From Formosa sp. (GTDB lineage: Bacteria > Bacteroidota > Bacteroidia > Flavobacteriales > Flavobacteriaceae): a DNA stretch of 64,000 nucleotides. The stretch is taken from the NCBI GenBank assembly GCA_018673215.1, contig JABHDE010000007.1:1-64000 (forward strand), read 5' to 3'. The translations under genes and the position numbers were made by a program. Positions 53,524 to 55,346 of the stretch are shown here, one piece after another; the stretch's first letter is position 1; each line of letters begins with the position of its first letter. The notes under the pieces were generated by a model that made no database searches, had not been told where the DNA came from, and saw only the letters and a program-made list of their open reading frames with translations.

Positions 53524-55272
53524 TTATAAATCTAAATCAAAGGTTTTACGTAAAAGTTCAACGTGTTTATTTTTTTCCACTAATTTTTGATACTTATCTT
53601 CTGGGGTATAGGCGTATTGTTTTTCAAGAGTTTCATTGACAATAATGTCTAGGGTTATTGAAAAATTATTAACGGCTTTTCGTAAGTATTGTAACAATTC
53701 AAACTGCTGGCGTTCTACTTCGATTTTATTAGTCGTATTTGGAAACTCCAATCGAATGGTATTTTCGTTGATGAGCTTTGGTGTATCTATCTGAAGAATT
53801 GCTGCTAGGTTGTATTTTCCGTCTGCTTCTAATTTGGTTACAAAAATATTCCAAAATTTAATAAGTGTTTCAAAGTTAAATGGATCGTTTGGCAGGTCTT
53901 CTTCATCAACCTTGACTTCCATCAATTTAATTTGGTGTTCTTTTTTCTTTCGAATGCTGCTGAGCGACAGTCCCGAAGTTGGACGTTGTGCACTTTTAAT
54001 AACGGGAACAGCTAGTTCCTTTTTAGGATAAGGTGCTTTTGGTTCTTCTACTTTTTGAGTAACTGAAGGGATTTCTTTTGATGGTTCTTCAGACGGTGTT
54101 TCTGAAGTCTCAACCGGTCGAGTGACTTTAACATCAGAAATATTTTTAGATCTAAAATAAGAGGCAGGAATTATGAATCCGCTAGGCTTTTTTTTTTCTC
54201 CATCAAAAGTGATAGAGGCAAGCTGCATGAGACAAAGTTCGACTAATAGTCGCTGGTTTTTACTCGTTTTATATTTGAGATCACAATCATTTGCAATTTC
54301 AATGGCTTGAATTAAAAAAGCTTGAGAAGTCGTCTCTGATTGAGTTTTGTATGTTATTTTTGTATCGTCACCAACTTCGAGTAATTCAATTGTTTGAGGG
54401 GTCTTACATACTAATAGGTCTCTAAAATGAGAGGCCAGTCCTGTAATAAAATGATGGCCATCAAATCCTTTGGAAAGAATGTGGTTAAAATGCAGTAGCA
54501 AATCTGGTATTTTGTTGGCTAAAATTAAATTAGTCGCTTCAAAAAAAGTGTCGTAATCTAAAACGTTCAGATTTTCTGTTACTGCTTTACGAGTTAGATT
54601 TTTTCCTGAAAAACTAACTATTCTGTCAAATATTGAGAGTGCATCTCTCATTGCGCCATCTGCTTTCTGAGCGATGATATGCAAGGCATCATTTTCGGCT
54701 GTAATTCCTTGTTCTTGAGCAATGACCTTAAGATAATCTTTAGCATCCGTAACGGTGATTCTTTTAAAATCAAAAATCTGACAACGGGATAAAATTGTTG
54801 GAATGATTTTGTGCTTTTCAGTAGTTGCTAAAATAAAAATACAATGTTTTGGGGGCTCTTCTAAGGTTTTTAGAAAGGCATTAAAAGCCGAAGGAGATAA
54901 CATGTGTACTTCATCAATGATATATACTTTGTAGTTTCCAACTTGTGGTGGAATTCGAACTTGTTCTGTCAGGCTTCTAATATCATCTACAGAATTATTG
55001 GAAGCAGCATCTAGTTCAAATATATTAAAGGCGAAATCTTCATTCTCATGATCAGTACCTTTACTGTTGATCATTTTAGCGAGAATTCGAGCGCAGGTCG
55101 TTTTACCAACCCCTCTTGGACCTGTAAATAATAAAGCTTGGGCCAAGTGATTTTGATCGATGGCATTTTTTAATGTATTGGTAATAGCCGACTGACCAAC
55201 CACATCCTTAAATGTTTGAGGTCTGTATTTTAATGCCGATACAATAAATGGTTCCATAAAAATCTTATTCAA
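53524..55272 (-). CDS. dnaX: DNA polymerase III subunit tau/gamma (possible internal frameshift site)
   Basis: LKYRPQTFKDVVGQSAI, GPRGVGKTTCARILAKMIN, ELDAASNNSVDDIR, IIDEVHMLSPSAFNAFLKTLEEPP. Confidence 0.95.
   Translation of the reverse strand: MNKIFMEPFIVSALKYRPQTFKDVVGQSAITNTLKNAIDQNHLAQALLFTGPRGVGKTTCARILAKMINSKGTDHENEDFAFNIFELDAASNNSVDDIRSLTEQVRIPPQVGNYKVYIIDEVHMLSPSAFNAFLKTLEEPPKHCIFILATTEKHKIIPTILSRCQIFDFKRITVTDAKDYLKVIAQEQGITAENDALHIIAQKADGAMRDALSIFDRIVSFSGKNLTRKAVTENLNVLDYDTFFEATNLILANKIPDLLLHFNHILSKGFDGHHFITGLASHFRDLLVCKTPQTIELLEVGDDTKITYKTQSETTSQAFLIQAIEIANDCDLKYKTSKNQRLLVELCLMQLASITFDGEKKKPSGFIIPASYFRSKNISDVKVTRPVETSETPSEEPSKEIPSVTQKVEEPKAPYPKKELAVPVIKSAQRPTSGLSLSSIRKKKEHQIKLMEVKVDEEDLPNDPFNFETLIKFWNIFVTKLEADGKYNLAAILQIDTPKLINENTIRLEFPNTTNKIEVERQQFELLQYLRKAVNNFSITLDIIVNETLEKQYAYTPEDKYQKLVEKNKHVELLRKTFDLDL
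54182..54198 (-). other. Candidate dnaX slippery site: GAA AAA AAA AAG followed by GCC TAG in the -1 frame
   Basis: A10 run (plus coordinates 54188-54197), A-AAA-AAG in the correct phase, -1 frame stop TAG at 54184-54182. Confidence 0.6.
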
Positions 55273-55346
55273 ACAAATTTAAAAATTCACAGCCGACTGT
55301 GTAAATTAAACCCTTGAAAATTAAAAGGAGTTATTAACAATTTATG

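Follow-up and report, generated by a model that had tools for sequence, protein, structure and literature searches.

A conserved adenine run behind domain III of dnaX in Formosa and other Bacteroidota, a probable site of programmed transcriptional slippage

The window analysed here, 64,000 nucleotides of a Formosa sp. contig (JABHDE010000007.1), carries a dnaX gene with a run of ten adenines (A10; 54188..54197, minus strand, as are all features given below) directly behind the end of domain III. This run very likely lets the single gene supply two clamp-loader proteins, tau and a shorter gamma-like form, and is probably a programmed slippage site of the transcriptional type. The comparative evidence presented below indicates that the site is real and functional. 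The kind of system is already known, since a tau-frame dnaX with A9 in Thermus and two-ORF dnaX genes with A10 have been published.

The run lies in a 582-codon open reading frame (55272-53524) whose codons 359-364 are GAA AAA AAA AAG CCT AGC, with the A10 in codons 359-362 as originally predicted. Pfam matches to the ATPase, lid and domain III of DnaX span residues 27-353, with domain III (DNA_pol3_gamma3, PF12169, residues 227-353) at 54214..54594, and the best PDB matches were E. coli gamma/tau. Five residues separate the end of PF12169 from the Glu codon of GAA AAA AAA AAG, and a short product would therefore end just behind the part that a clamp loader requires, while the tau-specific C-terminal part occupies codons 363-582 (53527..54186). 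The reading frame opens with a TTG (55272) located 15 nt upstream of an ATG (55257) that we consider the better start, because the TTG is not kept in congeners, being out of frame for instance in L095 and L096 where the ATG is kept in frame, and because it stands directly behind TAAATTTG. This element (55274-55281), also kept in congeners and located 16 nt before the ATG, resembles the -7 promoter element of Bacteroidota. On the basis of the domain matches and of the congener starts, the coding sequence probably spans 53524..55257, with a tau of 577 aa and a gamma of 358 aa (40.2 kDa); the original prediction of a 363-aa product against a 582-aa tau was thus right in placing the shorter end past domain III, and probably five residues too long in both lengths.

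Both alternative readings proposed for the run were recovered by frame translation. Addition of one A, or a ribosomal -1 shift, leads to ...DGEKKKA and a TAG (54182..54184), corresponding to 363 aa and 40.8 kDa when counted from the TTG, and loss of one A leads to ...DGEKKSLADS and a TAA (54171..54173), or 366 aa from the TTG, the same TAA being reached through ...DGEKKKSLADS when two A's are gained. In the mechanism that we propose, RNA polymerase would stutter on the A10 and release messages with 9, 10, 11 or more A's. Messages with ten (or thirteen) A's would be translated into tau of 577 aa, and those with eleven or nine would meet a stop few codons past the run and yield gamma-like proteins of approximately 358-362 aa, ending directly behind domain III and devoid of the tau-specific C-terminus. 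The sequences themselves establish the anatomy of the site, its stops and the conservation of the run with its flanks, and we infer from them the occurrence of slippage, its transcriptional nature, its efficiency and the use of the short protein by the clamp loader.

A sample of dnaX genes was assembled from 80 named contigs, relatives of the window genome, a phylum sample, one flavobacterial family studied in depth and a class sample, yielding 337 usable loci of Bacteroidota (sensu GTDB) in 151 clusters at 80% identity. A run of 9 to 13 A's closely followed the end of domain III in 284 of the 337 loci and in 116 of the 151 clusters, with A9 in 47, A10 in 208 (the mode), A11 in 26 and longer runs in three. 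When the longest A run was taken from the 140 nt around the boundary, its length fell into two groups, 0-6 nt and at least 9 nt, with only four of 261 loci at 7-8 and 150 at exactly 10. Among the control stretches, those 700 nt upstream contained no run above 7 and those 250 nt downstream had one of at least 9 in three loci; the same coding strands, 363 kb in total, held only four further runs of this length. The run was also retained by dnaX genes of 60-70% G+C, in which Lys is mostly encoded by AAG and in which the mean probability of such a run under synonymous shuffling was 0.026, Hymenobacter (64% G+C) being one example. The 15 congeners compared had an identical codon in only 74 of 587 columns, and the only stretch of more than two consecutive identical codons comprised the six codons TTT GAT GGA GAA AAA AAA, the context upstream of the run (TTTGATGGAG, 54198..54207) being likewise devoid of synonymous changes. 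The following codon was AAG in 14 congeners and AAC in one, a change of residue that left the A10 intact. In the comparison across loci, one of the checks named in the original prediction, the outcome was the reverse of its refuting pattern (interrupted runs or no stop), and the presence of the run at the dnaX boundary is not due to chance.

Stops also followed early in both shifted frames. In tau-frame genes a stop was observed within 10 codons in the +A frame in 146 of 147 cases and within 15 codons in the -A frame in 141 of 147. Both stops were close (+A within 6 and -A within 8 codons) in 125 of 146 tau-frame genes, against 28.8 expected from other positions of the same genes. With one gene per cluster (79 tau-frame clusters) the mean stop-distance rank was 0.21 for the +A and 0.28 for the -A frame, against an expected 0.5. 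The early stops of the -A frame would be superfluous for a ribosomal -1 shift but are to be expected with a polymerase that can add A's as well as drop them.

The 284 run-bearing loci exhibited two ARRANGEMENTS, the template frame being that of tau in 201 (as in the window) and that of gamma in 83 (approximately 30%). In the latter the template frame closes within a few codons after the run and the rest of tau is encoded in another frame, reached in the direction of added A's in 76 loci and in the opposite direction in seven. Among cultured strains, of which only those with strain or collection numbers are cited here, gamma is in the template frame in Flavobacterium denitrificans DSM 15936, F. 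psychrotolerans RB1R5, F. quisquiliarum EA-12, Chryseobacterium lathyri KCTC 22544 and Halpernia humi DSM 21580, and tau in Flagellimonas olearia CL-SS4, Aquimarina mytili KCTC 23302 and Pedobacter and Hymenobacter strains. A tree of cluster representatives required at least 24 changes of arrangement and at least 20 in the presence of the run (27 and 18, respectively, on a larger quick tree), and the congeners L277 and L278 differ by A11 versus A10 between similar flanks. Some of the frame changes seen in draft genomes may be assembly errors, but this does not hold for changes shared by whole clades, which keep one arrangement, and found in cultured strains. One congener of the window genome (L114/L176) has an A9 and hence a gamma template frame, either a true change or an assembly error in a draft genome. 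An essential gene can tolerate a change of one base in its middle only if either template yields both products.

The published system closest to that of the window gene is dnaX of Thermus thermophilus, in which programmed transcriptional slippage occurs on A9 (Larsen et al. 2000, as described in PMC1088944 and PMC5009743). As in that gene, tau is encoded in one ORF, an A homopolymer is located at the end of the shared part, both other frames have stops and no downstream structure is needed; the window gene has a run of at least nine A's at the gamma end, early stops in both non-template frames and conservation at the nucleotide level. The Thermus-type class is further marked by messages of mixed run length and roughly equal amounts of gamma and tau. 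The window gene differs in having A10 rather than A9, in belonging to another phylum and in the position of the site directly behind domain III, and its slippage is a prediction from sequence. Two-ORF dnaX genes, 17 from 12 genera and nine of them with A10, were found by GeneTack, with shorter runs in Chloroherpeton and two Chlorobium species (PMC3711429). Those genes resemble the 83 loci in which gamma is the template product and tau would arise by slippage, with A10 at the tau/gamma boundary, whereas the tau template of the window gene is a form that a search for broken ORFs misses. A limited literature search found no description of a tau-frame form in Flavobacteriia or of the pattern across the phylum.

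In E. coli, gamma is made by ribosomal -1 frameshifting in dnaX at A_AAA_AAG, aided by an upstream Shine-Dalgarno (SD) sequence and a downstream stem-loop. The same process acting on A_AAA_AAG or A_AAA_AAA, with polymerase slippage as a minor contributor, is the strongest alternative for the loci described here, albeit an unlikely one. In the window gene the heptamer (54187..54193) is in the 0-frame and in the E. coli phase, as originally noted, with the TAG directly behind it, and the two products would be the same as those of E. coli. The only tRNA-Lys found in the window genome (assembly 90.9% complete) has the anticodon UUU, and tRNA-Lys(UUU) alone is also the E. coli situation. A GGAG stands close upstream of the window run. 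SD-like tetramers were present in the 20 nt preceding the run in 50% of loci (35% when the GGAG context is set aside), whereas control positions had them in 10-19%. This enrichment may be caused by the linker's own residues, and the Gly codon before the run had no GGA bias across clusters (2/9). The GGAG of the window adjoins the run, unlike the E. coli SD, which lies about 10 nt before the heptamer. The direction in which most gamma-template genes reach tau is that of a -1 shift, and added A's would have the same effect. Codon phase cannot separate the two agents, because any run of nine or more A's always contains an in-phase A_AAA_AAA on which the ribosome could slip too.

Other observations point to the polymerase. 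The ribosome needs seven A's, but the runs have at least nine and almost never 7-8, and nine or more is the length published for slippage by bacterial polymerases (PMC1088944, PMC5009743). The window has ten A's where E. coli has six plus G, and the last base of the heptamer varies among relatives (G, C or T, so that the run ends in AAG, AAC or AAT). Unlike in E. coli, no stem-loop was found downstream in the window, where 74 nt folded at -7.5 kcal/mol (z = +0.67), in agreement with the original prediction, nor was there one on average over 109 loci (mean z -0.44 versus -0.21 in controls). We therefore favor polymerase slippage, because the runs are of nine or more A's, occur in all three codon phases, have variable endings and lack downstream structure, and because stops are also found in the -A frame and single-A frame changes are frequent and tolerated. 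The original preference for transcriptional over ribosomal slippage is accordingly the better supported of the two, if still unproven, and both may act together.

The signal looks different in the only clade that has a bare heptamer, where the ribosome is the likely agent. In one flavobacterial family (f7), A10 or A11 was present in nearly all of about 50 genes read, but L172 (genus g36) and L324 and L325 (genus g110) have CCA AAA AAG followed by TAG or TAA behind domain III in place of the A10. A hairpin lies 5-6 nt past the heptamer in all three, with arms GGTCTG.../...CAGACC, different loops and folding energies between -20 and -26.5 kcal/mol; visual comparison of L172 with L325 showed two inner pairs in which both partners had changed. 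Compared with dinucleotide shuffles the hairpin was clearly exceptional in L172 (z -4.2), and only -1.1 and -1.8 were obtained for L324 and L325. Gamma results from the stop in the template frame, and in L172 a -1 shift gives access to about 210 codons of tau. These three sequences probably use ribosomal -1 frameshifting to produce tau, with a signal of the same type as that of E. coli dnaX in the reverse arrangement (template gamma), and only where the run is gone. Three sequences are a small sample; genus searches found no further case of heptamer plus hairpin, and a pattern scan of 396 genomes for copies of the hairpin element returned seven one-mismatch matches and no exact one. Taken together, it seems likely that slippage is ancestral or near-ancestral in Bacteroidota, that dnaX drifts freely between tau-frame and gamma-frame states, since slippage makes both proteins from either template, and that at least one flavobacterial lineage, represented by these three genes, exchanged it for ribosomal frameshifting of the E. 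coli kind, complete with a heptamer, a stop and a hairpin.

The 53 loci without a run include Bacteroidaceae-like genes and several deep lineages. In the Bacteroidaceae-like genes L045, L070, L083, L344 and L353, GGG-CGT/CAT-AGC/GGC is shared at the same place. G_GGG_CGT_AGC was considered as a -1 site in L045, L070 and L083 and rejected, as the stop is lost in L344, L345 and L353 while the protein motif G-(R/H)-(S/G)-P is kept; the element is thus a protein motif rather than a shift site. The endosymbiont-like genome L175 (0.34 Mb, same order as the window genome) has a dnaX that lacks the A run and stops soon behind domain III, and only a gamma-length DnaX seems to be left.

Two other explanations fare worse. 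A contingency repeat mutating in the DNA and switching tau on and off between cells is very improbable: the A9/A10/A11 differences and template-frame changes between congeners would suit it, but such a tract would not stay so tightly at ten and whole clades keep one arrangement, and for DnaX a tau-off state is expected to be lethal. Taken alone, the single-gene case for the window run is weak. Only 12 A10 matches were found in the 1.94 Mb assembly, and among the eight runs inspected at least two others were inside long ORFs, so that an A10 inside a gene is rare and not unique in this genome. Those ORFs, of 221 aa (HAD-like) and 366 aa (acyltransferase-looking), carry the runs recorded as L003 (~1501) and L002 (~1501). 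The case for the run is strong because it is kept across relatives. Even less probable is an accident of A-rich coding in a Lys-rich linker with no programmed product, since, even if EKKK in the window is encoded with at least nine A's in about 63% of synonymous shuffles and linkers tolerate Lys, it would not account for the retention of the run across the phylum and in high-G+C genes, its bimodal length, the lack of synonymous change in congeners, the stops in both frames or the genes that cannot make tau without slippage.

The more interesting side of this result lies in the frame changes across the phylum and in the replacement of the run by a hairpin signal. To an annotator, dnaX would look broken in about a quarter of these genomes, although it is intact. 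A9, A10 and A11, both template frames and the hairpin replacement provide a natural series for measuring slippage. The truncating type of slippage has been called hard to assess by sequence comparison (PMC1088944), and a comparative argument is now offered for it. Whether cells require the short gamma protein is an old point of dispute (PMC5009743). The retention of the run in most of Bacteroidota argues that the short protein matters, and the persistence of the slippery run and its two early stops across the phylum, in spite of frame changes and high G+C, supports strongly, if indirectly, a need for both products.
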